From: Halichondria panicea
Lineage: Eukaryota > Porifera > Demospongiae > Suberitida > Halichondriidae
Reading direction: 5' to 3'
NCBI RefSeq assembly: GCF_963675165.1
Contig: NC_087386.1
Location: forward strand, 1,881,669-1,945,668
DNA: 64,000 nucleotides
Below are positions 30,041 through 58,580 of the stretch, piece after piece (the first letter of the stretch is position 1; every line of letters starts with the position of its first letter). A program made the translations under genes and the position numbers. A model generated the notes under the pieces. That model saw only the letters and a list, made by a program, of their open reading frames with translations, was not told the origin of the DNA and did no database searches.

Positions 30041-33000
30041 ATGATTCTATTTCTAACTGCTCTGCTCATCAGTGGCTATTGTGATGCTCTCACTTGTAAT
30101 CAAACAGGTAAGTTTAGGCAGACATTTGAAGATTTATTTACTTCATTTTACTGTTTTAGTGAACCCTATGACGTATCGACGTCTGTGGTCTGATAATGTG
30201 AATGATTACAATGGTGTTCCCATCACCTATCCACTAAACTGTATGCGGCAAAATCTTCAGGAAATCTCCATCCTCTGTGACTATGATGTGGTACTGGGTG
30301 ACGGAGCAATCATTGCATCTCCTCCTGATCTCAATAGTTCAAGTTATTTTGAGCATTTCATTGGGATGAGCAACTCAAGGAATTCGTATATTGACTTTGA
30401 CCTCACTACAGCAACGGCTGGGATTACTGCTATAGAGCTCAGTTTCTTGAACAGTCCTGCCAACAGAATCAGTTTGCCAGACATTACAATATCAGTAGTT
30501 CAATTTGGAACTGTATCGTTTATTGCAAGCTGGATATTTGATAATGAACATCTTGATCAGACGGACAACCAAATCAGAACTATTAGTATTCAGCCATTCA
30601 GACCACTTAGTGCTGTGAACCTCAGAATTAGGTTTCAGTTTACAGAATTTCATGATTTTAATTGGATCTTTCTAAGTGAAGTACGCTTTTGTACAGACCT
30701 TCAACCAAACTTACAACCAGAAGTAACATTTCAAATGCCACCATCAAACAATATCCAGCCAGATGCAGAGGACCTGAGAAGGGGATCAACAGAGTTAGTG
30801 TGCACTGTTTCCAGTGAAGGTTCATACACATGGCAGTGGAAGAGAGATAACAATATGATAGAAAATAAAGGGGACTACAGAATAACCATTGGAGATGGAA
30901 GCAGAACAACTGAGTTGACAATCAACAAACTAGGCTTTAGTGATGCTGCTGAATATGAATGTACGGGAATGACAAGACGAGATGCAAATGTTATGAACTC
31001 AATAATGTATGTATTGGAGTTTCCAGGTACTTAAATATCATACTTACACTACATTTTTTTAGTGATGTTCATTCCATTTTATAGAGCATGCCATTACAAC
31101 ACCTTATGTCAGTGGACATCTACTGACTGGAGAGGTTACTCTAACCTGTGAGCTCCATGGTTACCAGTTATCACTCTCTCCTCCGGTGTGGCTAAACACA
31201 AATGGCAGTGAAACAAATGGCTCTACCAAATACACTGTGTCCATGTGTGAAGGAAACAACACAATAATTCTACAGAATGGCACTATTCTTCCTAGTATTA
31301 TTCTGAGCATCACAATTCACAACCTTTCATCAGCTGATGGAGGTGCCTACACGTGTCATGGTGGTGTCAGAGGAGAGAGTGTCACTCAACTCACAATAGT
31401 AGAAGGGACCTTGTCTCCAAGTACGAGTACCATGTTATCCCAAACATGCATTCCTACACCTGGTTCTAGAGAAAGTGAGTAAACAGTGACTGAGTTTATG
31501 CTTTCAATATATGCCTTGTGTATTGTATTGGTGTACTGTTGACCTATAATGAAATGCATCAGCCATTTATCATTCTACATTCCTTATACAGCCATAACCA
31601 CCCCTCTATTGTCTGTCAACAATACTACCACTCAAGTTCCGGTGGATACTATTACTAATACAATCATCATAGCAGCTGCAGTAATCATCGTTATTATAGT
31701 ACTCACAGCAGTGGGTATTCTCGCAACAACTTTGTTGCTTGTTAAAATGTATCGGAGCAAGACTCTAACCAGCTCAATACAAAACGAGAACAATTACATA
31801 GAAATTGAGCTCAAGTCTGATTTGACGGAAAACGATGCCGGGAATTGCAATTGGCACCCTATGGCACGAGACAGTTTGAATCCTCCAATACCTCCCCAGT
31901 ATTTTGACGAAACTGATTTTCAGCAGTTAGAATTCGAGCATGAAGAGTTAGACTATGAAGATGGAGAGTTGTACAGACAGAGGAGAACAACAAATTCAAC
32001 TGAGCCTAAATTAACGAAATTAATTGCAGTTGATTTTGAGGATGCACTTGATTCCAATCCAATATATGATACTACATCTGTTTTAGGTGGTGGTTTCATA
32101 GAGGAAAATCCACTGTATGATGATCGAGAAACCTGTGGGGCAGAGGGCATACTCGGTGAAGAAAAATCATTGCTTGAACCAAATCCGATGTATGAGTCCG
32201 CACAGAATCTCGCTAGGTTTATGGAGGAGAATCCATTGTACGATAGGCGGAGCTGCAGTATCGACAGCGAACTCAGTGGAGAAGAACCCATTTACAATGA
32301 GGCTCTTAATCCAGCTATGTTTTCATGCAAAAGAGATCAATTTTATCATGAAGAATTAAATCCAATGCAAGATGGTAGTAATGCTGATTTGCTGCCATTT
32401 GAACCAGTGTACGACATACCTTCGCTGGTGGTGGCATCCGCAAAGCTCTTGCTAATTGAAACTGGAAACATTTGTGAAGAGAGGGTTCTTGGAATCGGGC
32501 AGTTTGGAGAAGTAGTGTTAGCGGAAACTGTGGGTTTGAGCGAGAAAGACCTGAAGCTTGGTTGCAGCACTGACAAGAATGCACGGATCCTAGTGGCAGT
32601 GAAGAAGTTGAAAAATCAGGCCGACAACTCCATGAAGGAATCGTTTGAGAAAGAGATCAAGTTCATGTCCGGGCTCTCCGATGAGAACATTGTTAGACTG
32701 TTGGCTGTGTGTGATAAGGAGCCTAAGTTCATTGTGATTGAGTACATGGAAAACGGAGATCTTTATCAGTTCTTGAATCAACATCAACTGGACACTTCAT
32801 CTGCCGAATTGCTGGAAAACAGATTAACAGTTTCGAATCTCCTGTACATCAGTGTTCAGATAGCCAGTGGAATGCGATATCTTGCTTCTCTTAAATACGT
32901 GCACAGAGATTTGGCCTCTAGAAACTGCCTTGTAGGCAAGAATTTGACAGTGAAAATTTCTGATTTTGGCATGAGTCGCAATCTGTACGAATCAGTTTAC

Positions 33001-33345
33001 TATCGATTGCGAGGACGAGCCGTACTTCCTATTCGCTGGATGGCTATGGAAGGCTTTTATGGGAGATTCTCTGAGAAGACAGACGTCTGGTCATTTGGTA
33101 TCACACTGTGGGAGATATTCACTCTGGGAAGATTCCTCCCTTACGAGGAACTAGATGATCAGCAAGTTGTTGATGAAGCAATTAGAAACAAACAACGTAA
33201 ACTACTATCGAAGCCCGAGGCATGCCCCGAGGATGTCTACCAACGTGTGATGCTTAAATGCTGGGAGTACAAACTAGAAGATAGAGCTGATTTCGTAGAG
33301 CTCCACAACTGTTTAGAAGAGATTCACAAGCACTTAGAAATATAA
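30041..33345 (+). CDS. RTK1: DDR-like receptor tyrosine kinase with discoidin-like and two Ig domains (subtype A, intact)
   Basis: Join 30041..30107, 30160..31026, 31085..31474, 31592..33345, in phase, 1025 residues. Exon 1 encodes a signal peptide (MILFLTALLISGYCDA). Exon 2 encodes a domain of about 210 residues resembling the DDR discoidin-like domain (YIDFDLTTATAGITAIELSF; FNWIFLSEVRFC) plus Ig1 (ELVCTVSSEGSYTWQW; DAAEYEC). Exon 3 is Ig2 (VTLTCELHGYQ; DGGAYTC). Exon 4 holds the membrane helix (about 464-490), a juxtamembrane region with NPIY, NPLY, NPMY, NPLY, EPIY and EPVYDIP, and the kinase from about 732. Kinase hallmarks: [45 protein letters not shown] and [11 protein letters not shown]. 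These last motifs match DDR1/2 far better than other RTKs. DDRs bind collagen; the ligand here is unknown. It is the most diverged unit at its 5' end. Confidence 0.92.
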
Positions 33346-33402
33346 TGCAGACAGCTATTTTTTAGAGGAAAGGATTTTATTACTGGCTTATAATAATTAT
33401 TG

Positions 33403-33414
33403 TAATGATCATTA
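33403..33414. repeat. Shared 3' palindrome TAATGATCATTA of the RTK units
   Basis: A perfect 12-bp palindrome 58 bases after the RTK1 stop. It recurs at 37545-37556 (RTK2), 44656-44667 (RTK4), 48277-48288 (RTK5) and 55026-55037 (RTK7), and at 41180-41191 (RTK3), where the flank reads AGTGA. A one-base variant, TAATGATCGTTA, sits at 29828-29839 before RTK1. It is missing after RTK6 (deleted) and RTK8. It could be a mark of the duplication unit, a 3' processing region or a homeodomain-type binding site. Confidence 0.8.
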
Positions 33415-34148: not shown

Positions 34149-37100
34149 ATGATTTCACTGCATCTATTTCTAACTGCTCTGCTCATCAGTGGCTATTGTG
34201 ATGCTCTCACTTGTAATCAAAAAGGTGAGCTTAAGCAGACATTTGAAGACTTACTTTCATGTTGTATATTTCAACTGATTAGTCCTTCCTACACTGTATC
34301 GAGGTCTGTGGTTAGATGGTGATCCAATTACATACAACGATGTTCTGATCACTTATCCATCAAATTGTACACTGCCAAACATTCTTGAAAGATCCACTGT
34401 CTGTAATTACAGTGTTGTACTGGGTGACGGAGCAATCATCCCATCTCCTCCTGATCTCAATAGTTCAAGTTATATCAGACATTTCATTGCTTGGAACAGA
34501 GACTCATTGAATAGTTTTCTTGACTTTGACCTCACTACAGCAACAGCTGCGATTACTGCTATAGAGCTCAGTTTCTTAAACAGTCCAGTCAACGGAATCA
34601 GTTTGCCAGAACCTAGACTATCTGTAGTTGAATATAAACGAGGCCTTAGTGTTCGAAACGAAACAAGTATTTCAACCTGGATATTTGATAATCAAGATCT
34701 GGCTCAGACAGACAACCAAATCAGAACTATTAGCATTCAGCCATTCCCACTATTTAGTGCTGCGAACCTCAGAATTAGGTTTATATTCACAGTGTTTCAT
34801 GATTTTGATTGGGTCTTTCTGAGTAAAATACGATTTTGCACACAGCCTCTACCACCTCTTCAGCAACTTAAGACTATAATCCTTCAAACACCATCATCGA
34901 TTGTTATTCAGCCAAGTGCAGACGACCTGAGAAGAGGATCAACAGAGTTAGTGTGTACTATTTCCAGTGAAGGATCATACGTATGGCAGTGGAGGAGAGA
35001 CAACGCTACCATAATGATGGAGAATAACGGGGACTACAGAATCACCATTGGAGACGGAAGTAGAATAACTAAGTTGACGATTAACAATCTGGACTTTAGT
35101 GATGCTGATAATTATGAATGCATAACAACAACACACGATGTGGATTTAATGAACTCAACAGTGTATTTAGTGGAGTTCCCAGGTACGTAAATATAGCTGT
35201 GTTATACTGTTTAATTCTTCCATACTATATAGAGCATGTCATTACTACACCTGATGTCAGTGGATATCTACAGACTAGAGAGGTTACCCTGACCTGTGAG
35301 CTCCATGGTTACCAGTTATCACTCTCTCCTCCTGTATGGCTAAACACAAATGGCAGTGAAACAAATGACTCTACCAAATATACTGTGTCTGTGTGTGAAG
35401 GAAACAGCACCATAATTCTACAGAATAGCACTGTTTTCTCCAGTATCATTTTCAACATCACAATTCACAACCTTTCATTAGCTGATGGAGGTACCTACTC
35501 GTGTCGTGGTGTCAGAGGAGAGAGTGTCACTCAACTCACAATATTAGAAGGGACCTCGCCTCCAAGTACGAGTACTTTGTTATCCCAAACATGCATTCCT
35601 ACAACTGGTTGCATGAAAAAACAGTGACTGAGTTTATGTTTCAATATGAGTGTGTCTATAGAACATTGTGTATTGTTGTTTCGTTCCTATAATGAAATGC
35701 ATCAGCCATTTATCATTCTACATTCCTTATACAGCCATAACCACCACTCCATTGTCTGTCAACAATACTACCACTCAAGTTCCGGATATTACTAGTACCG
35801 TCACCATAGCAGCTGCAGTGATCATTGTTATTATAGTACTCACAGCAGTGGGGGTTCTCACAACAACTTTGTTGCTTGTTAAAATCTATCGCAGCAAGAC
35901 TCTAACCAGCTCAATACAAAACAAGAACAATTACATAGAAATTGAGCTCAAGTCTGATTTGACTGATCTTTCTGCAGGGAATCGCAATTGGCACCCTATG
36001 GTACAAAATAATTTGATTCCTCCAATACCTCCCCAGTATTTTGACGAGACCGATTTTCAGCAGTTAGGATTCGAGCATGAAGAGTTAGACTGTGAAGATG
36101 GAGAGTTGTACAGACAGTCAAGAAGAAGATCAACTGAGCCAACATTGACGAAATTAATTGCAGTGGATTTTGAGGATGCACTTGATTCCAATCCAATTTA
36201 TGATACTACATCTAGAGGTTTCATGGAGGAAAATCCACTGTATGAGGATCGAGAAACCTGTGGGGTAGAGGGCATACTCAGTGGAGAAAAATCATTGCTT
36301 GAACCAAATCCGATATACATGTCTGCACAAAATCTTGCCAGGTTTATGGAGGAGAATCCATTGTACGATAGGCAGAGCTGCAGTACTGACAGCGAACTAA
36401 ATGGAGAACCCATTTACAATGAGGCTCTTAATCCAGCTATGTTGTCATGCAAAGGAGATCAATTTTATCATGAAGAACTAAATCCAATGAAGTTCAAACA
36501 AAATCAGCAAGATGGCGGTGATGCTGATTTGCTTCCATTTGAACCAGTGTATGACATACCTTCGCTGGTGGTGGCATCCGCAAAGCTCTTACTAATTGAA
36601 ACTGAAAACATTTGTGAAGAGAGGGTTCTCGGAATCGGGCAGTTTGGAGAAGTTGTTTTAGCGGAAACTGTGGGCTTGAGTGAGAAAGACCTGAAGCTTG
36701 GTAGCAGCACTGACAAGAATGCACGGATCCTAGTGGCAGTGAAAAAGCTGAAAGATCAGGCTGATAGCTCCATGAAGGAATCGTTTGAGAAAGAGATCAA
36801 GTTCATGTCCGGGCTCTCCGATGATAACATTGTTAGACTGTTGGCTGTGTGTGATAAGGAGCCAAAGTTCATTGTGATTGAGTACATGGAAAACAGAGAT
36901 CTTTATCAGTTCTTGAATCAACATCAACTGGACACTTCATCTGCCGAATTGCTGGAAAACAGATTAACAGTTTCGAATCTCCTGTACATTAGTGTTCAGA
37001 TAGCCAGTGGAATGCGATATCTTGCTTCTCTTAAATACGTGCACAGAGATTTGGCCTCTAGAAACTGCCTTGTGGGCAAGAATTTGACAGTGAAAATTTC

Positions 37101-37485
37101 TGATTTTGGCATGAGTCGTAATCTGTACGAGTCAGTTTACTATCGATTGCGAGGGCGAGCCGTACTTCCTATTCGTTGGATGGCTATGGAAGGCTTTTAT
37201 GGGAGATTCTCTGAGAAGACAGACGTCTGGTCATTTGGTATCACACTGTGGGAGATATTCACTCTGGGAAGATTCCTCCCTTACGAGGAACTGGACGATC
37301 AGCAAGTTATTGATGAAGCAATTAAAAACAAGCAACGTAAACTACTACCAAAGCCCGAGGCATGCCCTGAGGATGTTTACCAACGTGTGATGCTTAAATG
37401 CTGGGAGTACAAACTGGAAGATAGAGCTGATTTCGCAGAGCTCAACAACTGTCTAGAAAAGATTCACAAGCACTTAGAAATATAA
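34149..37485 (+). CDS. RTK2: DDR-like receptor tyrosine kinase (subtype A, intact)
   Basis: Join 34149..34224, 34283..35182, 35233..35607, 35735..37485, 1033 residues. The domain order is as in RTK1, with the fuller signal peptide start MISLHLFLTALL. The ectodomain begins LPTLYRGLWLDGDPITYNDV and ends SEIRFC. The exon 3 donor is unusual: the gtgagt seen in other units is lost and the only phase-preserving choice is ACAACTG|gttgca, so this junction is the weakest part of the model. The juxtamembrane motifs are NPIY, NPLY, NPIY, NPLY, EPIY and EPVYDIP, and an Asn-to-Arg change gives YMENRDLYQ in the hinge. The kinase motifs [16 protein letters not shown] and DFG are complete. Confidence 0.88.
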
Positions 37486-37749
37486 TGCAGGCAGCTTTTT
37501 TTTAGAATATGACTGGCATGGCTTATTAACAATAATAATTATTGTAATGATCATTAATGAAAAAAGACTTAGACTGAGTTTACTGTCGCTATTGTCAGTT
37601 TCTATATTACACCATAAATTGATCATGAAGAGTTCAATCTATGATTACACCGACAACTCTGGTCAAATGTTATTAGTCAAGAATACTGCCAGTTTACATA
37701 GTCTGAGATGATCTCTTGTCTGCAAAAATTAGCTACACAATCATGAATC

Positions 37750-40700
37750 ATGATTGACATGATTTCCCTGCATCTATTTCTAACTGCTCTGCTCACCAGT
37801 GGCTATTGTGATGCTCTCACTTGTAATCAAACAGGTGAGCTTATAATTATAGGCAGACATTTGAAATTTTATTTTCATATTGTATTCCACCAATTAGTCC
37901 TTCCTACACTGTATCGAGGTCTGTGGTTTGATGGTGATCTAATTACATACAACGATGTTCTGATCACCTATCCATCAAATTGTACGCAGCCAAACATTCT
38001 TAATAGATTCAGTGACTGTGATTACAGTGTTGTACTGGGTGACGGAGCAATCATCCCATCTCCTCCTGATCTCAATAGCGCAAGTTATTTCACACATTTC
38101 ATTGCTTGGAACAGAGACTCATTGAAAAGTTTTATTGACTTTGACCTCACTACAGCAACGGCTGGGATTACTGCTATAGAACTCAGTTTCTTGAACAGTC
38201 CTGCCAGTGGAATCAGTTTGCCAGAACCTAGACTATCTGTAGTTGAATATGCCCAAAGCCTGAGAGATCGAAGTGAAACAAATATTACAACCTGGATACT
38301 TAACAATCAAGATCTGGCTCAGACAGACAACCAAATCAGAACTATTAGCATTCGGCCACTCACACCACTTAGTGCTGCGAACCTCAGAATTAGGTTCCAA
38401 TTCATAGTGTTTCATGATTTTGATTGGATTTTTCTGAGTGAAATACGATTTTGCACACAGCCTCAACCTCCTTTACTTAATAACTCTGTTATCCTTCAAA
38501 CACCATCATCAATTGTTGTTCAGCCAAGTGCAGACGGCCTGAGAAAAGGATCAACAGAGTTAGTGTGCACTATTCCGGGTGAAGGATCATATGTATGGCA
38601 GTGGAAGAGAGACAATAGTATCATGATTCTAGAAAATAATGGGGATTACAGAATCACCATTGAAGACGGAAGCAGAACAACTAAGTTGATTATTAACAAT
38701 CTGGACTTTAGTGATGCTGCTAATTATGAATGCATAGCAACAACAACACACGATGTGGATTTAATGAACTCAACAGTGTATTTAGTGGAATTTCCAGGTA
38801 CCTAAATATTGTCTTAGAATTATTTGTTATAGTACTTCTATTCTAGAGCGTGTAATTACTGCACCTGATGTCAGTGGATATCTACAGTCTGGAGAGGTTA
38901 CCCTGACCTGTGAGCTCCATGGTTACCAGTCATCACTCTCTCTTCCTGTGTGGCTAAACACAAATGGTAGTGAAACAAATGACTCTGCCAAATACACTGT
39001 GTCCGCGTGTGAAGGAAACAACACCATAATTCTACAGAATGGCACTGTCGTCCCTAGTATCATTTTCAACATATCAATTCACAACCTTTCATCAGCTGAT
39101 GGAGGGAACTACACGTGTCGTGGTGTCAGAGGAGAGAGTGTCACTCAACTCACAATAGTAGAAGGGACTGATCCAAATAAAATATTACCCCAAACATGCA
39201 CCTCTACGTCTATAGAGGGTGAGTAAACTGTGATTGAGTTTACTTTCATTTTGCACCTAAGCCTATATACCTATTATCAGTAAACAATTATAACTTGTTG
39301 ATTGCCATTTGGTTTCAATACTTGTAATTGACAGTTGTAAACATGATCGTTTTTACAGTAAATATCACCCCCACTCTACCCCCTGGTAACGAAACTACCA
39401 CTCGTGTCCCTGTAACGGACGACACCATTGTCATCATAGCAGCTGCAGTCGTGACTGTTTTTATAATACTCACAGCAGTTGGTATTCTTGCAACAGCTTT
39501 GGTGTTTATTAAAATGTATCGCAGTAAGACTCTAGCCATTTCGACATACAATGAGAACAATTACATAGAAGTTGAACTCACGCCTAATTTAACAAAAAAT
39601 GTAACCGACATTCAGAACTCCCCTATGGCACGAGACAGCGTTATCCCTACAATACCTTCCCAGGATTTGGCTGAGACAGATTTTCAACAAATGGGATTTG
39701 ATCGTGAAGAGCTAGAGTACGAAAATGGAGAGTTGTACAGACAGCCGGGAAGAATGCAACTAAAGAGGAGATCAACAAATTCAACTGAGCCAAAATTGAC
39801 GAAAGTCATTACAGTTGATTTTGAGGAAGCGCTTGATTCCAATCCAATATATGATACTGCATCTATTTTAGGTGATGGTTTTATGGAGGAAAATCCACTG
39901 TATGATAATCAAGAAACCTGTGGGGCAGAGGGCATACTCAGTGGAGAAAAATCATTGCTTGAACCAAATCCGATGCACGAGTCTGCACAGAGTCTTATGA
40001 AGGAGAATCCATTGTACGGTAGGCGGAGCTGCAGTACTGACAGCGAACTCAGTGGAGAATCAATTTACAATGAGGCTTTTAATCCAGCTATGTTGTCATG
40101 CAAAGGAGATCAATTTTACTATGAAGAAATAAATCCAAGTAACTTTGAACCAAGTCAGCTAGATGGCGGTGACACGAATTTGCTTCCATTTGAACCAGTG
40201 TACGACATACCTTCGCTGGTGGTGGCATCCGCAAAGCCCTTGCTAATTGAAACTGAAAACATTTGTGAAGAGAGGGTTCTTGGAATCGGGCAGTTTGGGG
40301 AAGTTATTTTAGCGGAAACTGTGGGTTTGAGTGAGAAAGACCTGAAGCTTGGTAGCAGCACTGACAAGAATGCACGGATCCTAGTGGCAGTGAAGAAGCT
40401 GAAAGATCAGGCCGACAACTCCATGAAGGAATCATTTGAGAAAGAGATCAAGTTCATGTCCGGGCTCTCCGATGAGAACATTGTTCGTTTGTTGGCTGTG
40501 TGTGATAAGGAGCCAAAGTTCATTGTGATTGAGTACATGGGAAACGGAGATCTTTATCAGTTCTTAAAACGACACCAGCTGGATACTGCCGAATTGCTGG
40601 AAAACATATTGACAGTTTCGAATCTCCTGTACATTAGTGTTCAGATAGCCAGTGGAATGCGATATCTTGCTTCTCTTAAATACGTGCACAGAGATTTGGC

Positions 40701-41130
40701 CTCTAGAAACTGCCTTGTGGGCAACAATTTGACAGTGAAAATTTCTGATTTTGGTATGAGTCGTAATCTCTACGAGTCAGTTTACTATCGATTACAAGGG
40801 CGAGCCATACTTCCAATTCGTTGGATGGCAATGGAAAGTTTCTATGGGAGATTCTCTGAGAAGACAGACGTCTGGTCATTTGGTATCACACTGTGGGAGA
40901 TATTCACTCTGGGAAGATTCCTCCCTTACGAGGAACTGGACGATCAGCAAGTTGTTGATGAAGCAATTAGAAACAAGCAACGTAAACTACTACCAATGCC
41001 CGAGGCATGCCCTGAGGATGTCTACCAACGTGTGATGCTGAGATGCTGGGAGTACAAACTGGAAGATAGAGCTGATTTCGCAGAGCTCAACAACTGTCTA
41101 GAAGAGATTCACAAGCACTTCGAAATATAA
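37750..41130 (+). CDS. RTK3: DDR-like receptor tyrosine kinase (subtype B, intact)
   Basis: Join 37750..37834, 37898..38797, 38847..39218, 39359..41130, 1042 residues. The start MIDMISLHLF is three residues longer than RTK2 and is shared with RTK5. Subtype B is defined by the stalk encoded after exon 3 (VNITPTLPPGNETTTRVP instead of the A-type PLSVNNTTT), a different membrane helix (VVTVFIILTAVGILATALVF) and an insertion GRMQLKRRSTNS. The third NPxY is altered to NPMHES. The remaining tyrosine motifs are NPIY, NPLY, NPLYGR, SIYNEAF and EPVYDIP. The kinase has all catalytic motifs; its activation segment reads [19 protein letters not shown]. Confidence 0.92.
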
Positions 41131-44300: not shown

Positions 44301-44620
44301 GCCGTACTTCCTATTCGTTGGATGGCTATGGAAAGTTTCTATGGGAGATTATCTGAGAAGACAGACGTCTGGTCATTTGGTATCACACTGTGGGAGATAT
44401 TCACTCTGGGAAGATTCCTCCCTTACGAGGAACTGGACGATCAGCAAGTTATTGATGAAGCAATTTACAACGTAAACTACTACTAAAGCCTGAAGCATGC
44501 CCTGAGGATGTCTACCAACGTGTGATGCTGAGATGCTGGGAGTACAAACTGAAAGAGAGAGCTGTTTCACAGAGCTCCACAAAGTTCTAGAAGAAATTCA
44601 CAAGCACTCAGAAATAATAT
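41342..44620. pseudogene. RTK4: broken DDR-like receptor tyrosine kinase (+ strand, subtype A)
   Basis: All parts are recognisable in order on the + strand: exon 1 41342-41417, degraded exon 2 to 42336, exon 3 from about 42382, exon 4 from about 42875. Lesions include a 13-base loss at the start of exon 2 (near 41483), an in-frame TAG at 41803-41805, a one-base loss in the juxtamembrane region near 43374, a TAA in the third tyrosine motif near 43469 and a frame change in the kinase near 44100. The end is altered near 44465. The nucleotide loop reads GIEQFGDV, losing a key Gly. Ig1 and Ig2 remain open. The spread of damage indicates an older loss than in RTK7. Confidence 0.9.
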
Positions 44621-44824: not shown

Positions 44825-47800
44825 ATGATTGACATGATTTCACTGCATCTATTTCTAACTGCTCTGCTCATCAGTGGCTATTGTGATGCTCTCACTTGTA
44901 ATCAAACAGGTGAGCTTAAAGCAGACATTTGAAGATATATTTTTATATTGTATTTCAACCGATTAGCCCTTCCTACACTGTATCGCGGTCTGTGGTTAGA
45001 TGGTGGTCCAATTACATACAACGATGTTCCGATCACCTATCCATCAAATTGTACACTGCCAAATATTCTTGCTAGATATATTGCCTGTGATTACGGTGTT
45101 GTACTGGGTGACAGAGCAATCATTCCATCTCCTCCTGATCTCAATAGTGCAAGTTATTTCACCTACTTCATTACTTGGAACAGAGACTCATTGAATAGTT
45201 TTATTGACTTTGACCTCACTACAGCAACGGCTGGGATTACTGCTGTAGAACTCAGTTTCTTGAACAGTCCTGCCAACAGAATCAGTTTGCCAGAACCTAG
45301 ACTATCTGTTATTGAATATAATCCAGGCTTTAGAGATCAAACAGAAACAAATATCACAACCTGGATACTTGACAATCAAGATCTGACTCAGGCAGACCAC
45401 CAAATCAGAACTATTAGCATTCGGCCACTCACACCATTTAGTGCTGCGAACCTCAGAATTAGGTTCCAATTTACAGCGTTTCGTGATTTTGATTGGGTCT
45501 TTCTGAGTGAAATACAATTTTGCACACAGTTTCAACCTCCTTTTCAACTTCAGGCTCTAATCTTTCAAACACCATCATCAATTGTTGTTCAGCCAAGTGC
45601 AGACGACCTGAGAAAAGGATCAACAGAGTTAGTGTGCACTGTTTCCAGTGAAGGATCGTACACATGGCAGTGGAATAACACTTTTTTAGAAAATAAAGGC
45701 GACTACAGAATCACCATTGGAGACGGAAGCAGAACTACTAAGTTGACGATTAACAATCTGGACTTTAGTGATGCTGCTAATTATGAATGCATAGCAACAA
45801 CACACGATGTGGATTTAATGAACTCAACAGTGTATTTAGTGGAGTTTCCAGGTACCTATATAGATCTACTTACATAATATACTTATTGCACTACAAATTA
45901 TTGCTGTTTCATTCTAGAGAGTGTCATTACTGCACCTGCTGTCAGTGGATATCTACAGACTGGAGAGGTTACCCTGACCTGTGAGCTCCATGGTTACCAG
46001 TCATCACTCTCTCCTCCTGTGTGGCTAAACACAAATGGCAGTGAAATAAATACCACTACCAAATACACTGTGTCTGTGTGTGAAGGAAACAACACCATAA
46101 TTCTACAGAATGGCACTGTCTTCCCTAGTATCATTTTCAACATCACAATTCACAACCTTTCGTCAGCCGATGAAGGGAACTACACGTGTCGTGGTGTCAG
46201 AGAAGAGAGTGTCACTCAACTCACAATATTAGAAGGAACTGATCCAAACATGTTACCCCAAACATGCATCTCTACGTCTATAGAGGGTGAGTAAACTGTG
46301 ATTGAGTTTACTTTCATTATGCACCTATATGCCTATTATCAATAAACAATTGTAACTTGTTGATTGCCATTTGGTTTCAATACTTGTACTAATTATATAT
46401 AATACTAGTAATTGACAGGTGTAAACATGATTGTTTTTACAGTAAATATCACCCCCACTCCACCCCCTGGCAACGAAACTACCACTCGTGTCCCTGTATT
46501 AGACGAAAACATTGTCATCATAGCAGCTGCAGTCGTGACTGTTTTTATAATACTGACAGCAGTTGGTATTCTTGTAACAGCTTTGGTGTTTATCAAAATG
46601 TATCGCAGTAAGACTCTAGCCATTTCGACACACAATGAGAACAATTACATAGAAGTTGAACTCACGCCTAATTTAACAGAAAACGTAACCGACATTCAGA
46701 ACTCCCCTATGGCACGAGACAGCGTCATCCCTACAATACCTTCCCAGGATTTGGCTGAGACAGATTTTCAACAAATGGGATTAGATCGTGAAGAGCTAGA
46801 GTACGAAAATGGAGAGTTGTACAGACAGCCGGGAAGAATGCAACTAAAGAGGAGATCAACAAATTCAACTGAGCCTAAATTGACGAAAGTTATTACAGTT
46901 GATTTTAAGGATGCGCTTGATTCTAATCCAATATATGATACTGCATCTATTTTAGGTGATGGTTTTATGGAGGAAAATCCACTGTATGATGTTCAAGAAA
47001 CCTGCGGGGCAGAGGGCATACTCAGTGGAGAAAAATCTTTGCTTGAACCAAATCCGATGCATGAGTCTGCACAGAGTCTTATGAAGGAGAATCCATTGTA
47101 TGGTAGGCGGAGCTGCAGTACAGATAGCGAACTCAGTGGAGAACCAATTTACAATGAGGCTTTTAATCCAGCTATGTTGTCATGCAAAGAAAATCATTTT
47201 TACTATGAAGAAATAAATCCAAGTAACTTTGAACCAAGTCAGCAAGATGGCGGTGACACGAATTTGCTTCCATTTGAACCAGTGTACGACATACCTTCGC
47301 TGGTGGTGGCATCCGCAAAGCCCTTGCTAATTGAAACTGAAAACATTTGTGAAGAGAGGGTTCTTGGAATCGGGCAGTTTGGGGAAGTTATTTTAGCGGA
47401 AACTGTGGGTTTGAGTGAGAAAGACCTGAAGCTTGGTAGCAGCACTGACAAGAATGCACGGATCCTAGTGGCAGTGAAGAAGCTGAAAGATCAGGCCGAC
47501 AAATCCATGAAGGAATCGTTTGAGAAAGAGATAAAGTTCATGTCCGGACTCTCCGATGAGAACATTGTTCGTTTGTTGGCTGTGTGTGATAAGGAGCCAA
47601 AGTTCATTGTGATCGAGTACATGGGAAACGGAGATCTTTATCAGTTCTTAAAACGACACCAGCTGGATACTGCCGAATTGCTGGAAAACAGATTGACAGT
47701 TTCGAATCTCCTGTACATTAGTGTTCAGATAGCCAGTGGAATGCGATATCTTGCTTCTCTTAAATACGTGCACAGAGATTTGGCCTCTAGAAACTGCCTT

Positions 47801-48214
47801 GTGGACAACAATTTGACAGTGAAAATTTCTGATTTTGGCATGAGTCGCAATCTCTACGAGTCAGTTTACTATCGATTGCGAGGACGAGCCGTACTTCCAA
47901 TTCGTTGGATGGCAATGGAAAGTTTCTATGGGAGATTCTCTGAGAAGACAGACGTCTGGTCATTTGGTATCACACTGTGGGAGATATTCACTCTGGGAAG
48001 ATTCCTCCCTTACGAGGAACTGGACGATCAGCAAGTTGTTGATGAAGCAATTAGAAATAAGCAACGTAAACTACTACCGAAGCCCGAGGCATGCCCTGAG
48101 GATGTCTACCAACGTGTGATGCTTAAATGCTGGGAGTACAAACTGAAAGATAGAGCTGATTTCGCAGAGCTCAACAACTGTCTAAAAGAGATTCACAAAC
48201 ACTTTGAAATATAA
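44825..48214 (+). CDS. RTK5: DDR-like receptor tyrosine kinase (subtype B, intact)
   Basis: Join 44825..44909, 44967..45851, 45918..46286, 46443..48214, 1036 residues, all phases consistent. It is nearest to RTK3 in the cytoplasmic half. Ig1 is shortened by a few residues (WQWNNTFLENKGDY), removing the KRDN segment present in the other units. The stalk reads TPTPPPGNETTTRVPVLDEN. Tyrosine motifs are NPIY, NPLYDV, the altered NPMH, NPLYGR, EPIYNEAF and EPVYDIP. Kinase motifs [25 protein letters not shown] and DFGMSRN are complete. A Gly-to-Asp change follows the catalytic loop (VDNN where others have VGKN or VGNN). Confidence 0.92.
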
Positions 48215-48436: not shown

Positions 48437-51400
48437 ATGATTTCACTGCATCTATTTCTAACTGCTCTGCTCATCAGTGGCTATTGTGATGCTCTCACTT
48501 GTAATCAAACAGGTAAACTTAGGCAGACGTTTTAAAACTTATGTTGTATTTCAACCGATTAGCCTTTCCTACACTGTATCGTGGTCTGTGGTTGGATGGT
48601 GATCCAATTAAATACAACGATGTTCTGATCACCTATCCATCAAATTGTACATAGCCAAACATTCTTGAAAGGTTCACTGTCTGTGATTACAGTGTTGTAC
48701 TGGGTGACGGAGCAATCATTCCATCTCCTCCTGATCTCAATAGTGCAAGTTATTTCACACATTTCATTGCTTGGAACAGAGACTCATTGAATAGTTTTGT
48801 TGACTTTGACCTCACTACAGCAACGGCTGGGATTACTGCTATAGAACTCAGTTTCTTGAACAGTCCTCCCAGTGGAATAAGTTTGCCAGAACCTAAACTA
48901 TCTGTAGTTGAATATAAACGTGGCCTTAGTGTTCGAAACGAAAAAAAATTTAAAACCTGGATATTTGATAATCAAGATCTGGCTCAGACAGACAACCAAA
49001 TCAGAACTATTAGCATTCGGCCATTCCCACCACTTAGTGCTGCGAACCTCAGAATTAGGTTTCACTTCACAGTCTTTCATGATTTTGATTGGGTCTTTCT
49101 GAGTGAAATACGGTTTTGCACACAGTCTCTACCACCTTTTCAACTTAAGGTTATAACACCATCATCAATTATTATTCAGCCAAGTGCAGATGACCTGAGA
49201 AGAGGATCAACAGAGTTAGTGTGTACTGTTTCCAGTGAAGGATCGTACATATGGCAATGGGAGCGAGGCAACGCTATCATAATAGAAAATAAAAGCGACT
49301 ACACAATCACCATTGGAGACGGAAGCAGAACAACTAAGTTGAGGATTAACAATCTGGACTTTAGTGATGCTGACAATTATGAATGCATAACAACAACACA
49401 CGATGTGGATTTAATGAACTCAACAGTTTATTTAGTCGAGTTCCCAGGAACGTAAATATTAATTGTGTTATATACTGTTTTATTCTTCCATACTATATAT
49501 AGAACATGTCATTACTACACCTTATGTCAGTGGATATCTACAGACTGGAGAGGTTACCCTGACCTGTGAGCTCCATGGTTACCAGTCATCACTCCTGTGT
49601 GGCTAAACACAAATGGCAGTGAAACAAATGACTCTGCCAAATACACTGTGTCTGTGTGTGAAGGAAACAACACCATAATTCTACAGAATGGCACTGTCGT
49701 CCCTAGTATTATTCTGAGCATCACAATTCACAACCTTTCATCAGCTGATGAAAGGAACTACACGTGTCGTGGTGTAAGAGGAGAGAGTGTCACTCAACTC
49801 ACAATATTAGAAGGGACCTCGCCTCCAAGTATGAGTACTTTGTTATCCCAAACATACATTCCTACACCTGCATGGTTGCATGAAAAAACAGTGACTGAGT
49901 TTATGTTTCAATATGAGTGTGCCTATAGAACATTGTGTATTGTTGTTTCGTTCCTATAATGAAATGCATCAGCGATTTATCATTCTACATTCCTTATACA
50001 GCCATAACCACCACTCCATTGTCTGTCAACAATATTACCACTCCATTTCCGAATATTACTAGTACCACCATAGCAGCTGCAGTAATCATCGTTATTATAG
50101 TGCTCACAGCAGTGGGGGTTATCGCAACAACTTTGTTGCTTGTTAAAATGTATCGCAGCAAGACTCTAACCAGCTCAACGATAACAATTACATAGAAATT
50201 GAGCTCAAGTCTGATTTGACTGATCTTTCTGCAGGGAATCGCAATTGGCACCCTATGGTACAAAATAATTTGATTCCTCCAATACCTCCCCAGTATTTTG
50301 ACGAGACCGATTTTCAGCAGTTAGGATTCGAGCATGAAGAGTTAGACTATGAAGATGGAGAGTTGTACAGACAGTCAAGAAGGAGATCAACTGAGCCAAC
50401 ATTGACAAAATTAATCGCAGTGGATTTTGAGGATGCACTTGATTCCAATCCAATATATGATACTACATCTAGAGGTTTCATGGAGGAAAATCCACTGTAT
50501 GAGGATCGAGAAACCTGTGGGGCAGAGGGCATACTCAGTGGAGAAAAATCATTGCTTGAACCAAATCCGATATACGAGTCTGCACAAAATCTCGCCAGGT
50601 TTATGGAGGAGAATCCATTGTACGATAGGCGGAGCTGCAGTATCGACAGCGAACTCAGTGGAGAAGAACCCATTTACAATGAGGCTCTTAATCCAGCTAT
50701 GTTTTCATGGAAAGGAGATCAATTTTATCATGAAGAACTAAATCCAATGAACTTCAAACAAAATCAGCAAGATAGTAATGATGCTGATTTGCTTCCATTT
50801 GAACCAGTGTATGACATACCTTCGCTGGTGGTGGCATCCGCAAAGCCGTTGCTAATTGAAACTGAAAACATTTGTGAAGAGAGGGTTCTCGGAATCGGGC
50901 AATTTGGAGAAGTTGTGTTAGCGGAAACTTTGGGTTTGAGTGAGAAAGACCTGAAGCTTGGTAGCAGCACTGACAAGAATGCACGGATCCTAGTAGCAGT
51001 GAAGAAGCTGAAAGATCAGGCCGATAACTCCATGAAGGAATCGTTTGAGAAAGAGATCAAGTTCATGTCCGGCCTCTCCGATGAGAACACTGTTAGACTG
51101 TTGGCTGTGTGTGATAAGGAGCCAAAGTTCATTGTGATCGAGTAAATGGAAAACGGAGATCTTTATCAGTTCTTAAATCGACACCAGCTGGACACTTTAT
51201 CTGCCGAATTGCTGGAAAATAGAATAACAGTTTTGAATCTCCTGTACATTAGTGTTCAGATAGCCAGTGGAATGCGATATCTTGCTTCTCTTAAATACGT
51301 GCACAGAGATTTGGCCTCTAGGAATTGCCTTGTGGGAAAGAATTTGACAGTGAAAATTTCTGATTTTGGCATGAGTCGTAATTTGTACGAGTCAGTTTAC

Positions 51401-51570
51401 TATCGATTGCGAGGACGAGCCGTACTTCCTATTCGTTGGATGGCTATGGAAGGCTTTTATGGGAGATTCTCTGAGAAGACAGACGTCTGGTCATTTGGTA
51501 TCACACTGTGGGAGATATTCACTCTGGGAAGATTCCTCCCTTACGAGGAACTGGACGATCAGCAAGCTTA
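48437..51570. pseudogene. RTK6: broken and 3'-truncated DDR-like receptor tyrosine kinase (+ strand, subtype A)
   Basis: Exon 1 (48437-48512) is normal. Exon 2 carries TAG at 48652-48654, where relatives have a sense codon after NCT. Its donor is changed from gtacgt to gaacgt near 49450. A short deletion in exon 3 near 49590 and another in the juxtamembrane region near 50180 shift the frame. TAA interrupts the kinase at 51143-51145 (IVIE then stop). The gene ends abruptly after ELDDQQA near 51570, where it joins sequence normally found upstream of the next unit, so the kinase tail and the 3' flank are gone. Otherwise the kinase is very close to RTK2, which suggests recent duplication or conversion. 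Confidence 0.92.
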
Positions 51571-51701
51571 GACTATAAGTTTACTGTCGCAATGGAAACT
51601 ATTTAGTTTCTATAATTATTACACCAACTCTAGTCAAGATCTACTTCAAGAATACTGCCAGTTTGAGATGATCTCTTGTCTGCAAAAATTAGCTACACAA
51701 T

Positions 51702-54700
51702 CATGATTTCACTGCATCTATTTCTAACTGCTCTGCTCATCAGTGACTATTGTGATGTTATTTTTTCATATTGTATTCCACCGATTAGTCCTTCCTACAC
51801 TGTATCGCGGTCTGTGGTTAGATGGTGATCCTATTACATACAACGATGTTCTGATCACCTATCCATCAAATTGTGCACAGCCTAACATTCTTGCTAGATA
51901 CATTGTCTGTGATTACAGTGTTCTACTGGGTGATGGAGCAATCATTCCATCTCCTCCTGATCTCAATAGTGCAAGTTATTTCAGACATTTCATTACTTGG
52001 AACAGAGATTCATTGAAAAGTTTTATTGACTTTGACCTCACTACAGCAACGGCTGGGATTACTGCTATAGAGCTCAGTTTCTTGAACAGTCCTGCCAGTG
52101 GAATCAGTTTTCCAGAACCTAGACTATCTGTAGTTGAATATACCCAAGGCTTTAGAGATCGAAGTGAAACAAATATTACAACCCAGATATTTAATAATCA
52201 AGATCTGTCTCAGACAGACAACCAAATCAGAACTATTAGCATTCAGCCACTCACACCACTTAGTGCTGCAAACCTCAGAATTAGGTTCCAATTCACAGTA
52301 TTTCATGATTTTGATTGGATCTTTCTGAGTGAAATACGATTTTGCACACAGCCTCAACCTCCTTTACTTATTAACACTGTTATCCTTCAAACACCATCAT
52401 CAATTGTTGTTCAGCCAAGTGCAGACGACCTGAGAAAAGGATTAACAGAGTTAGTGTGCACTATTCCGGGTGAAGGATCATATGTATGGCAGTGGAAGAG
52501 AGACAATAGTATTATGATTCTAGAAAATAATGGGGATTACAGAATCACCATTGAAGACGGAAGCAGAACTACTAAGTTGATTATTAACAATCTAGACTTT
52601 AGTGATGCTGATAATTATGAATGCATAGCAACACACGATGTGGATTTAATGAACTCAACAGTGTATTTAGTGGAATTTCCAGGTACCTAAATATTGTCTT
52701 AGAATTATTTGTTATAGTACTTCTATTGTAGAGCGTGTAATTACTGCACATGATGTCAGTGGATATCTACAGTCTGGAGAGGTTACCCTGACCTGTGAGC
52801 TCCATGGTTACCAGTCATCACTCTCTCCTCCTGTGTGGCTAAACACAAATGGTAGTGAAATAAATGACTCTGCCAAATACACTGTGTCCGTGTGTGAAGG
52901 AAACAACACCATAATTCTACAGAATGGCACTGTCGTCCCTAGTATCATTTTCAACATCACAATTCACAACCTTTTATCAGCTGATGAAGGGAACTACACG
53001 TATCGTGGTGTCAGAGGAGAGAGTGTCACTCAACTCACAATATTAGAAGGGACTGATCCAAACATGTTATCCCAAACATGCATCTCTACGTCTATAGAGG
53101 GTGAGTAAACTGTGACTGAGTTTACTTTCATTATGCACCTAGGCCTATATACCTATTATCAGTAAACAATTATAACTTGTTGATTGCCATTTGGTTTCAA
53201 TACTTGTAATTAACAGCTGTAAACACGATCGTTTTTACAGTAAATATCACCCCCACTCCACCCCCTGGCAACGAAACTACCACTCGTGTCCCTGTAACGG
53301 ACGACATTATTGTCATCATAGCAGCTGCAGTCGTGACTGTTTTTATAATACTCACAGCAGTTGGTATTCTTGTAACAGCTTTGGTGTTTATCAAAATGTA
53401 TCGCAGTAAGACTCTAGCCATTTCGACACACAATGAGAACAATTACATAGAAGTTGAACTCACGCCTAATTTAACAGAAAACGTAACCGACATTCAGAAC
53501 TCCCCTATGGCACGAGACAGCGTCATTCCTACAATACCTTCCCAGGATTTGGCTGAGACAGATTTTCAACAAATGGGATTTGATCGTGAAGAGCTAGAGT
53601 ACGAAAATGGAGAGTTGTACAGACAGCCAGGAAGAATGCAACTAAAGAGGAGATCAACAAATTCAACTGAGCCAAAATTGACGAAAGTCATTACAGTTGA
53701 TTTTGAGGATGCGCTTGATTCCAATCCAATATATGATACTGCATCTATTTTAGGTGATGGTTTTATGGAGGAAAATCCACTGTATGATGATCAAGAAACC
53801 TGTGGGGCAGAGGGCATACTCAGTGAAGAAAAATCATTGCTTGAACCAAATCCGATGCATGAGTCTGCACAGAGTCTTATGAAGGAGAATCCATTGTATG
53901 GTAGGCGGAGCTGCAGTACAGATAGCGAACTCAGTGGAGAACCAATTTACAATGAGGCTTTTAATCCAGCTATGTTGTCATGCAAAGAAAATCATTTTTA
54001 CTATGAAGAAATACATCCAAGTAACTTTGAACCAAGTCAGCAAAATGGCGGTGATGCTGATTTGCTTCCATTTGAACCAGTGTACGACATACCTTCGCTA
54101 GTGGTGGCATCCGCAAAGCCCTTGCTAATTGAAACTGAAAACATTTGTGAAGAGAGGGTTCTCGGAATCGGGCAATTTGGAGAAGTTGTGTTAGCGGAAA
54201 CTGTGGGCTTGAGTGAGAAAGACCTGAAGCTTGGTACCAGCACTGACAAGAATGCACGGATCCTAGTGGCAGTGAAGAAGCTGAAAGATCAGGCCGACAA
54301 CTCCATGAAGGAATCGTTTGAGAAAGAGATCAAGTTCATGTCCGGGCTCTCCGATGAGAACATTGTTAGACTGTTGGCTGTGTGTGATAAGGAGCCAAAG
54401 TTCATTGTGATCGAGTACATGGAAAACGGAGATCTTTATCAGTTCTTAAATCGACATCAGCTGGATACTGCCGAATTGCTGGAAAACAGATTGACAGTTT
54501 CGAATCTCCTGTACGTTAGTGTTCAGATAGCCAGTGGAATGCGATATCTTGCTTCTCTTAAATACGTGCACAGAGATTTGGCTTCTAGAAACTGCCTTGT
54601 AGGCAAGAATTTGACAGTAAACATTTCTGATTTTGGCATGAGTCGTAATCTGTACGAGTCAGTTTACTATCGATTGCGAGGACGAGCCGTACTTCCTATT

Positions 54701-55057
54701 CGCTGGATGGCTATGGAAGGCTTTTATGGGAGATTCTCTGAGAAGACAGACGTCTAGTCATTTGGTATCACACTGTGGGAGATAATCACTATGGGAAGAT
54801 TCCTCCCTTACGAAGAACTGGACAATCAACAAGTTATTGATGAAGCAATTAGAAACAAGCAACGTAAACTACTACCGAAGTCCGAGGCATGCCCTGAGGA
54901 TGTCTATCAACGTGTGATGCTTAGATGCTGGGAGTACAAACTGGAAGATAGAGCTGATTTCGCAGAGCTCCACAAAGTTCTAGAAGAAATTCACAAGCAC
55001 TTAGAAATAAGGATTTTCTTACTGGTAATGATCATTAATGAAAAAGACTTAGACTAA
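51702..55057. pseudogene. RTK7: broken DDR-like receptor tyrosine kinase (+ strand, subtype B)
   Basis: Parts on the + strand: exon 1 from 51702, exon 2 51789-52682, exon 3 52732-53100, exon 4 from 53241. A deletion after the signal peptide removes the end of exon 1, its donor and most of intron 1 (CDALTCNQT is lost), so normal splicing into exon 2 is impossible. The second Ig2 cysteine is Tyr (NYTYRG). TAG at 54755-54757 replaces the Trp of DVWSFG in the kinase, and the normal stop is lost (reads LEIRIFLL). There are few lesions, so inactivation is probably recent; population polymorphism is possible. Confidence 0.88.
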
Positions 55058-55231
55058 CTCCTGAGTTTACTATCGCTATTGTCACTATCGCTATTGTCAG
55101 TTTCTATATTATATTTATATATAGATCTACTACACCATATCAACTCTGGTCAAATGTTATTGCTTCAAGAATACTGCCAGTTACTACATAGTCCGAGATG
55201 ATCTCTTGTCTGCAGAATTAGCTACACAATC

Positions 55232-58200
55232 ATGATTTCACTGCATCTATTTCTAACTGCTCTGCTCATCAGTGGCTATTGTGATGCTCTCACTTGTAAT
55301 CAAACAGGTGAGCTTAAGCAGACATTTGAAGATTTATTTTTATATTGTATTTCAACCGATTAGCCATTCCTACACTGTATCAAGGTCTGTGGTTAGATGG
55401 TGATCCTATTACATACAACGATGTTCTGATCACCTATCCATCAAATTGTACAAAGCACATTATTGCTGACACTGTCTGTGGTTATAGTGTTGTACTGGGT
55501 GATGGAGCAATCATTCCATCTCCTCCTGGTCTCAATAGTGCAAGTTATTTCAGACATTTCATTGCTTGGAACAGAGACTCATTGAATAGTTTTATTGACT
55601 TTGACCTCACTACAGCAACGGCTGGGATTACTGCTATAGAACTCAGTTTCTTGAACAGTCCTGCCAATGGAATCAGTTTGCCAGAACCTAGACTATCCGT
55701 AGTTGAATACGTACGTATGGCACGTGGCTTTAACGAAACAAGTATTACAACCAGGATATTTGACAATCAAGATCTGGCTCAGACAGACAACCAAATCAGA
55801 ACTATTAGCATTCGGCCATTCCCACCACTTAGTGCTGCGAACCTCAGAACTAGTTTCCAATTCACAGTATTTCATGATTTTGATTGGGTCTTTCTGAGTG
55901 AAATACGATTTTGCACACAGCCTCAACCTCCTTTTCAACAACTTAATGTCATTTTTCAAACACCATCACATATTATTGTTCAGCCAAGTGCAGACGATCT
56001 GAGAAGAAGGTCAACAGAGTTAGTGTGCACTATTCCGGGTGAAGGATCGTACGTATGGCAGTGGAAGCGAGACAATGCCACCATAATAATAGAAAATATT
56101 GCGGACTACAGAATCACCATTGGAGACGGAAACAGAACAACTAAGTTGACGATTAACAATCTGGACTTTAGTGATGCTGCTAATTATGAATGCATAGCAA
56201 CAACAACACACAATGTGGATTTAAGGAACTCAACAGTGTATTTAGTGGAGTTCCCAGGTACCTTACTTACATAATATACTTATTGTACTACAAAATATTG
56301 CTGTTTCATTTTAGAGAGTGTTATCACAGCACTTGATGTCAGCGGGTATCTACAGACTGGAGAGGTTACCCTGACCTGTGAGCTCCATGGTTACCAGTCA
56401 TCACTCTCTCCTCCTGTGTGGCTAAACACAAATGGCAGTGAAAGAAATGACTCTACCAAATACACTGTGTCCGTGTGTGAAGGAAACAACACCATAATTC
56501 TACAGAATGGCACTGTCTTCCCTAGTATTATTTTCAATATCACAATTCACAACCTTTCATCAGCTGATGGAGGTATCTACACGTGTTGTGGTGTCAGAGG
56601 AGAGAGTGTCACTCAACTCACAATATTAGAAGGAACTGATCCAAACATATTATCCCAAACATGCATTTCCTCGTCTATAGAGGGTGAGTAAACTGTGACT
56701 GAGTTTACTTTCATTATGTACCTATATACCTATTATCAGTAAACAATTATAACTTGGATTGTTTTGGTTTTAATACGTAATTAACAGCTGTAAACACGAT
56801 CGTTTTTACAGTAAATATCACCCCCACTCCATCCCCTGGCAACGAAACTACCACTCGTGTCCCTGTATTAAACGAAAACATTGTCATCATAGCAGCTGCA
56901 GTTGTGACTGTTTTTATAATACTCACAGCAGTTGGTATTCTTGTAACAGCTTTGGTGTTTATCACAATGTATCGCAGTAAGACTCTAGCCATTTCGACAC
57001 ACAATGAGAACAATTACATAGAAGTTGAACTCACGCCTAATTTGACAGAAAACGTAACCGACATTCAGAACTCCCCTATGGCACGAGACAGCGTTATCCC
57101 TACAATACCTTCCCAGGATTTGGTTGAGACAGATTTTCAACAAATGGGATTCGATCGTGAAGAGCTAGAGTACGAAAATGGAGAGTTGTACAGACAGCCG
57201 GGAAGAATGCAACTAAAGAGGAGATCAACAAATTCAACTGAGCCAAAATTGACGAAAGTCATTACAGTTGATTTTGAGGATGCGCTTGATTCCAATCCAA
57301 TATATGATACTGCATCTATTTTAGGTGATGGTTTTATGGAGGAAAATCCACTGTATGATGATCAAGAAACCTGCGGGGCAGAGGGTATACTCAGTGGAGA
57401 AAAATCATTGCTTGAACCAAATCCGATGCATGAGTCTGAACAGAGTCTTATGAAGGAGAATCCATTGTACGGTAGGCGGAGCTGCAGTACTGACAGCGAA
57501 CTCAGTGGAGAACCAATTTTCAATGAGGCTTTTAATCCAGCTATGTTGTCATGCAAAGGAGATCAATTTTACTATGAAGAAATAAATCCAAGTAACTTTG
57601 AACCAAGTCAGCAAGATGGCGATGACACGAATTTACTTCCATTTGAACCAGTGTACGACATACCTTCGCTGGTGGTGGCATCCGCAAAGCCCTTGCTAAT
57701 TGAAACTGAAAACATTTGTGAAGAAAGGGTTCTTGGAATCGGGCAGTTTGGGGAAGTTATTTTAGCGGAAACTGTGGGTTTGAGTGAGAAAGACCTGAAG
57801 CTTGGTAGCAGCACTGACAAGAATGCACGGATCCTAGTGGCAGTGAAGAAGCTGAAAGATCAGGCCGACAACTCCATGAAGGAATCGTTTGAGAAAGAGA
57901 TCAAGTTCATGTCCGGGCTCTCCGATGAGAACATTGTTCGTTTGTTGGCTGTGTGTGATAAGGAGCCAAAGTTCATTGTGATCGAGTACATGGGAAACGG
58001 AGATCTTTATCAGTTCTTAAAACGACACCAGCTGGATACTGCCGAATTGCTGGAAAACAGATTGACAGTTTCGAATCTCCTGTACATTAGTGTTCAGATA
58101 GCCAGTGGAATGCGATATCTTGCTTCTCTTAAATACGTGCACAGAGATTTGGCCTCTAGGAACTGCCTTGTGGGCAACAATTTGACAGTAAAAATTTCTG

Positions 58201-58580
58201 ATTTTGGCATGAGTCGCAATCTCTACGAGTCAGTCTACTATCGATTACAAGGGCGAGCCATACTTCCAATTCGTTGGATGGCAATGGAAAGTTTCTATGG
58301 GAGATTCTCTGAGAAGACAGACGTCTGGTCATTTGGTATCACACTGTGGGAGATATTCACTCTGGGAAGATTCCTCCCTTACGAGGAACTGGACGATCAG
58401 CAAGTTGTTGATGAAGCAATTAGAAACAAGCAACGTAAACTACTACCGAAGCCCGAGGCATGCCCTGAGGATGTCTACCAACGTGTGATGCTTAAATGCT
58501 GGGAGTACAAACTAGAAGATAGAGCTGATTTCGCAGAGCTCCACAAAGTTCTAGAAGAAATTCACAAGCACTTGAAATAA
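55232..58580 (+). CDS. RTK8: DDR-like receptor tyrosine kinase (subtype B, intact)
   Basis: Join 55232..55307, 55364..56257, 56315..56683, 56812..58580, 1035 residues. It is the last unit of the array. Its ectodomain is the most distinct among the B units (NCTKHIIADTVCGYSVVLG; VEYVRMARGFNETS), and an extra Cys follows the Ig2 motif (IYTCCGVRG). The stalk is TPTPSPGNETTTRVP. The motifs are NPIY, NPLYDD, the altered NPMH, NPLYGR, EPIFNEAF (Tyr lost) and EPVYDIP. Kinase motifs are complete and the segment [19 protein letters not shown] is identical to RTK3. The C-terminus ends EEIHKHLK, one residue short of the usual EI ending, and the shared 3' palindrome is absent. Confidence 0.92.

Follow-up and report, generated by a model that had tools for sequence, protein, structure and literature searches.

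Vertebrate paired receptors, such as KIR, Siglec, and PIR, come from gene clusters in which ectodomains are shared, and exchanged, between two classes with opposite tail types; the activating arm in these systems is an ITAM adaptor. In the known receptor tyrosine kinases (RTKs) DDR1 and DDR2, the discoidin domain is the collagen-binding part. In Botryllus (fester/FcoR) and Hydractinia (Alr), candidate genes for allorecognition have been reported to carry motifs of the ITIM and the ITAM or hemITAM type, and the available text of a 2025 review (PMC12065747) presents ITIM/ITAM motifs as a link between allorecognition systems from cnidarians to mammals, while it describes the candidate proteins of sponges, cnidarians, and ascidians as not conserved between these groups. 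For sponges, the available text of PMC12018476 cites a Geodia RTK with Ig-like domains, that of PMC10573612 reports the closeness of DDR1 to the Geodia kinase, and that of PMC8242945 describes close to 200 putative cytokine receptors from Halichondria panicea transcriptomes, with domains of the tyrosine kinase, Ig, and FN3 types.

The H. panicea locus described here resembles KIR, Siglec, and PIR in organization: its genes are clustered and an ectodomain is shared and exchanged between tail classes, but the putative activating arm is apparently a tyrosine kinase built into the receptor. Set beside the published descriptions of Alr and FcoR, it likewise has ITIM-like motifs but differs in that an RTK class shares the ectodomain; the term "tyrosine kinase" had no matches in the available text of PMC12065747. 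The array resembles DDR1 and DDR2 in the predicted DS-like fold of its N-terminal domain and in a kinase 49 to 50% identical to theirs, whereas two membrane-adjoining Ig domains, a tandem arrangement, kinase-less partners, and the lack of a discoidin domain in the exons scanned set it apart. An Ig pair is shared with Geodia proteins, whereas genomic pairing, array size, and ectodomain mixing are described for Halichondria alone. The available text of PMC8242945 names no array, shared ectodomain, or ITIM-like tails and has no matches for "discoidin." In a literature search of titles and abstract openings, with subscription papers mostly outside its scope, no description of this array was recognized and no report of ITIM/ITAM-type allorecognition motifs in a sponge was found. 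The reading favored here, with a probability of roughly 0.6, is that about 155 kb of the sponge genome forms a putative recognition complex of paired receptors, RTKs on one side and ITIM-like partners on the other, of which the window would be the kinase end.

RTK units in the window and their kinase

The window is the whole 64,000-nucleotide stretch that was analyzed (contig C10, positions 1881669 to 1945668); C10 has 6,998,024 bases, and the source assembly contains 131 Mb in 39 contigs. Eight RTK units (G1 to G8) were found in the window as direct repeats, in register, with a spacing of 3.3 to 4.1 kb. Over a 300-base kinase stretch, seven units were 92 to 98% identical to the eighth, used as the reference copy. 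In the spliced gene model, four exons separated exclusively by phase-1 introns encode the signal peptide, the N-terminal domain plus Ig1, Ig2, and, in a single exon, the transmembrane helix (TM), an NPxY-rich juxtamembrane region, and the kinase. The features, in window positions, were as follows.

30041..33345, plus strand: RTK G1, intact, with GT-AG phase-1 introns, an open frame, and Pfam Ig and kinase matches
30041-30107, 30160-31026, 31085-31474, and 31592-33345, plus strand: G1 exons, encoding the signal peptide; DS-like domain and Ig1; Ig2; and TM, NPxY-rich juxtamembrane region, and kinase, respectively
34149..37485, plus strand: RTK G2, exons 34149-34224, 34283-35182, 35233-35607 (uncertain), and 35735-37485, with an abnormal exon-3 donor
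37750..41130, plus strand: RTK G3, exons 37750-37834, 37898-38797, 38847-39218, and 39335-41130, intact as a spliced model
37900..38475, plus strand: G3 N-terminal domain used in structure prediction (DDR1 DS-like fold)
41342..44616 (end approximate), plus strand: RTK G4, broken, with loss of frame in both exon 2 and the kinase exon
44825..48214, plus strand: RTK G5, exons 44825-44909, 44967-45851, 45918-46286, and 46419-48214, intact as a spliced model
48437..51571 (end approximate), plus strand: RTK G6, broken, with an exon-2 stop, the exon-2 donor changed from gt to ga, and stops in the kinase match
51703..55009 (end approximate), plus strand: RTK G7, broken, with the 3' end of exon 1 and its donor deleted and a TAG in the kinase exon
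55232..58580, plus strand: RTK G8, exons 55232-55307, 55364-56257, 56315-56683, and 56788-58580, intact as a spliced model

Uninterrupted spliced receptors were obtained from G1 (1,025 aa), G3 (1,050 aa), G5 (1,044 aa), and G8 (1,043 aa). The exons of G2 were open, but its normal exon-3 donor has been lost and the model assumes a weak alternative GT; G4, G6, and G7 either are disrupted or contain assembly errors. A sequence-only reading of the window had proposed a tandem array of eight genes with DDR-specific wording in the kinase. Eight units were indeed present, but the clearly intact genes number four, and the DDR wording occurred in some copies (e.g., G1) but was slightly varied in others. 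The order of two Ig domains, TM, and tyrosine kinase is that of the Geodia-type sponge Ig RTK, with the TM helix judged by eye.

Compared to PDB sequences with phmmer, the kinase matched DDR2 and DDR1 first (283 to 269 bits), followed by a two-stretch EGFR chain (228), TrkB (225), and MuSK (188). Identities to the G3 kinase were 50% for DDR2, 49% for DDR1, 45% for TrkB, 41% for MuSK, and 38% for MET. In a 21-row tree, a single clade (99/99) was formed by 10 kinases of C10, 3 in the window and 7 in C10:1701-1734k, with DDR1/2 as its sister (78/58). Forced grouping of the sponge clade with TrkB was borderline (p-AU, 0.054), as was forced grouping of DDR with TrkB (p-AU, 0.054), and grouping of the sponge clade with MuSK was rejected (p-AU, 0.0005); for its grouping with two other RTK rows, P0003 and C10_45k, p-AU was 0.037. 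The phylogeny places DDR1/2 beside the sponge kinases, but with a support of just 78/58 and a borderline TrkB alternative; DDR-like is the best single label for the kinase, not a proven one. Across five RTKs, dN/dS was 0.57 in exon 2, 0.48 in Ig2 (exon 3), 0.46 in the TM and juxtamembrane region, and 0.15 in the kinase, a pattern of sequences relaxed or diversifying outside the cell and constrained inside. A separate kinase expansion was seen on C1 at about 15.5 to 17.4 Mb, with more than 20 PK_Tyr_Ser-Thr matches of similar score and ∼770 bases on both strands.

Other ORFs in the window included one with a fibrinogen C-terminal domain (5864-6769; Pfam E value, 1.3e-30), TRIM-like ORFs with RING/B-box and filamin repeats (24975-26946, minus strand), and a 495-aa ORF that directly precedes the array and gave no Pfam match above the cutoff (28290-29777). 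FAD-monooxygenase-like ORFs, presumably MICAL-like as judged by eye, occurred near each receptor cluster (window 23355-24558, minus strand, and C10:1682101-1683730) and were perhaps duplicated together with the clusters.

Composition of the shared ectodomain

The structure of the G3 N-terminal domain was predicted from a 93-row alignment, and the DS-like domain of DDR1 was the top match in both structural searches, in agreement with the earlier suggestion that the N-terminal ectodomain is the discoidin-like domain of DDRs. A sequence search of the PDB with the N-terminal domain alone (input of 17 of 27 diverse rows, the 27 drawn from 81 of the 93 aligned rows) returned no DDR, only three ubiquitin hydrolase rows with E values of 1.2 to 1.3, and none of these receptor genes was among the matches listed in a genome scan with PF21114. 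Assignment of the domain as a predicted DDR-type DS-like domain is therefore based mainly on its fold.

Six RTK exon ORFs were scanned with Pfam (exon 2 of G1, G2, and G3, exon 3 of G2, and exon 4 of G1 and G8). Ig matches reached the Pfam cutoffs, as expected for the two membrane-adjoining Ig domains that had been proposed. No match to the N-terminal discoidin (F5/8 type C; PF00754) domain of DDRs appeared in these six ORFs or in a further scan of G3 exon 2 plus 21 relatives; the suspected absence of this domain was thus upheld over the sequences scanned, and a collagen-receptor reading was set aside on the same grounds. The genome contained 11 PF00754 matches, 8 of them above the cutoff, on C17, C16, and C1, and none was near a kinase match among those listed from a scan that scored 129 of 1,749 candidates, so that a canonical gene joining a discoidin domain to a kinase may still exist in this genome. 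Eight F5/8 type C domains above the cutoff were clustered at C17:349854-376970, away from the kinase matches listed.

The best two PDB matches to the spliced Ig1-Ig2 piece, each spanning both Ig domains, were 8ovq (E value, 6.7e-15; "Cell recognition molecule, long form") and 8qpx (E value, 4.9e-14; "Receptor tyrosine kinase [Fragment]"). We take both chains to be Geodia cydonium proteins and 8ovq to be a sponge adhesion molecule. The two chains look near-identical in the alignments, as if the Ig pair were shared in Geodia between a kinase and another molecule. Together with the available text of PMC12018476 and PMC10573612, these matches give an Ig-bearing, DDR-like sponge RTK a precedent. 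A DDR-related receptor that has the DS-like domain but no discoidin domain offers a way into the question of how DDRs came to be assembled.

Kinase-less units and their tyrosine-motif tails

A genome search with G3 exon 2 produced 75 matches, 74 of which were on C10. Mapping of receptor modules over C10:1780001-1882000 by tblastn revealed 36 ectodomain units without a kinase, whole or broken, at C10:1786142-1872469, 9 to 96 kb upstream of the window start. The modules were the same as those of the RTKs, 35 of the 36 units shared one orientation, and the kinase of the window had no tblastn match among them in this interval. Exon 2 was open over its full length in 15 of the 36 units, and 9 of these 15 yielded complete receptors of 544 to 560 aa under simple splicing rules.

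The upstream units end in a TM and a short tail, and the tails are of three related kinds. The sequence [IVLS]xYxx[ILV] in a cytoplasmic tail is the ITIM consensus. Tails were collected with the pattern [VA]xYEE[ILV], and [DN][VA]xYEEI was found in 35, of which 32, with V at position −2, match the ITIM consensus and 3 have A at this position. A second tyrosine motif, NEAY[VM]C[VL], was present in all 35 tails and stands 13 residues from the first. An ITIM-like motif is short, and the copies stem mostly from recent duplication, so the 35 tails do not amount to 35 separate cases of conservation. A motif scan that included the window placed all 35 tail motifs upstream of it and none within it. 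The kinase and short-tail classes therefore look like separate genes, and alternative splicing of one gene to a kinase or an ITIM tail was rejected for the same reason.

Diverged relatives form a side cluster at C10:1666-1714k. The relative at C10:1666535-1668557, 56 to 58% identical in exon 2, retains NVTYEEIAER...NESYVVM. One relative in the cluster ends in NVTYEEIAERTEMKLKTNESYVVM; in another, the tail contains PPPPLPQP, TTIYETI, and NPAYG, and the TM region matches, as judged by eye, the one in an RTK at a distance of 34 kb (1712848-1714621). RTKs at C10 1699-1702k and 1705-1708k follow, as judged by eye, the order seen in the window, with a DS-like signature first, then Ig-like stretches, a TM, and a kinase; their first domain is 30 to 35% identical. 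No YEEI motif was found in the stretches examined of two more relatives (on C6 and at C10:196k). For the gene at C10:1666535-1668557 (P0081, LOC135343285), NCBI gives an isoform X2 of 454 aa that lacks the TM and tail encoded in frame downstream, so that a soluble form of this receptor may exist.

Such a form would fit a soluble decoy, and the many broken copies and the DDR-like character of the DS-like domain and kinase also agree with a rival reading: DDR-like RTKs that sense the matrix would have expanded in this lineage, the copies lacking a kinase would act as decoys or dominant negatives, and the tail motifs would serve trafficking or adaptor binding, leaving no inhibitory arm. We consider this unlikely. 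The discoidin domain through which DDRs bind collagen was not found in the scanned exons, and a two-tyrosine-motif tail, for which a pure decoy would have no need, is kept in a relative whose exon 2 has diverged to 56 to 58% identity.

Potential downstream partners were found elsewhere in the genome. At C3:8406287-8404573, the minus strand has successive matches to SH2, SH2, and phosphatase domains, one of the SH2 matches being incomplete and containing a stop, and at C9:5259157-5255365 the succession is SH2, SH2, and kinase; read from unspliced domain matches, these look like SHP-type and Syk-type genes. Among the tyrosine phosphatase matches listed (176 in the genome), most were on C4 from about 41 kb to 2.6 Mb, an expansion that could be a counterpart of the kinase expansion. 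The Syk-like order, the two YxxI/YxxV-type motifs of each tail, and the YxxM-type YVVM of the 1666k relative would suit short tails that are ITAM-like or that dock PI3K or adaptors once phosphorylated by the RTKs, so that both classes activate and the array merely widens the range of ligands, for instance, for microbes. This alternative is doubtful, as the motif spacing of 13 lies outside the usual ITAM spacing of 6 to 12, the first motif is an ITIM consensus in 32 of 35 tails, and the genome also has the SH2-SH2-phosphatase order.

Ectodomain exchange, a second contig, and the proposed complex

An exon-2 tree was built from 21 open copies (6 RTK and 15 short). The RTK and short labels required five changes on this tree, at least three of which were forced by well-supported branches, and shuffled labels required 5.3 on average. 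Exon 2 of G1 was 90.7% identical to a kinase-less copy versus 65.6% to the nearest RTK, and the kinases of G1, G3, and G8 were 94 to 98% alike. As a counterexample to mixing, exon 2 of G3 and that of G7 were mutually nearest (91.9%). By these comparisons, tail type does not predict how the ectodomain exons group. At the sequence level, the locus thus has the clustering, shared ectodomain, differing signaling tails, and exchange between classes by which paired receptors are recognized. Exon-2 dN/dS was 0.57 over 210 pairs, with dN exceeding dS in 3, and pN/pS in 15-codon windows ranged from 0.14 to 1.9 among the 21 copies, with only some windows reaching 1. Positive selection on exon 2 is not claimed, since dN/dS was below 1 overall and dN exceeded dS in only these three pairs.

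Two further contigs carried related proteins. On an 800,893-bp contig, 18 ectodomain proteins among the matches listed were 99.3 to 100% identical to the reference, 4 of them being listed as proteins of the window itself. On an 811,764-bp contig, 24 ectodomain proteins were among the matches listed, 22 mapping to the array and 2 to the side cluster. Best reference identities of the 22 array proteins were 79 to 93% in 18, a range that stands without a genome-wide baseline, and 98 to 99% in 4, 1 of which was matched over 146 of 234 residues. The two side-cluster proteins had best identities of 84% and 100%. The protein database is clustered at 90%, and close alleles may hide under the representative of another contig, so the diverged share on this contig is an upper bound. 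The occurrence of a 100% side-cluster match beside diverged array copies suggests that the 811,764-bp contig is another haplotype of this species, with allelic status assumed.

Repeated similar blocks and many broken frames in a heterozygous genome could also be expected if copy number and divergence were largely an assembly artifact or haplotype duplication. This is very unlikely: the 800,893-bp contig, unlike C10 in length, has the 18 listed proteins at 99.3 to 100%, the divergence among the open exon-2 copies (mean dS, 0.25) far exceeds sequencing error, and 35 of the 36 kinase-less units are in one orientation.

The sequences themselves document how the receptors are built and clustered, that ectodomains are mixed between classes, that the kinase is constrained, and that a second contig carries diverged copies. 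In the paired-receptor reading, two classes of type I membrane receptor carry one variable ectodomain (DDR-type discoidin-like domain and two Ig domains): the RTKs, with their DDR-like kinase and NPxY sites, and the short receptors, whose tails combine a VxYEEI motif of ITIM-like type with another tyrosine motif, YVCV. Because the ectodomains are shared, both classes would be expected to meet the same kind of ligand, on neighboring cells or on microbes. The RTK would be the activating arm, phosphorylating itself and co-engaged short tails, and the ITIM-like short receptors would be the damping arm, their tails recruiting SH2 proteins, either an SHP-type phosphatase to damp the signal or a Syk-type kinase. 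The short tails would in this way set the threshold for a recognition response, possibly allorecognition or microbe sensing. A more specific version, put forward tentatively, is that of a sponge histocompatibility-type complex of haplotype-diverse paired receptors, in which the DDR-like RTKs would be activating and their ITIM-tailed siblings inhibitory.

If true, recognition through activating and inhibitory tyrosine motifs would lie at the base of animals, with the kinase built into the receptor. Kinase-bearing and ITIM-like receptors with one ectodomain would extend the ITIM/ITAM logic of allorecognition to sponges, and the array would be a concrete, testable candidate locus for self/non-self or microbe recognition in a sponge.
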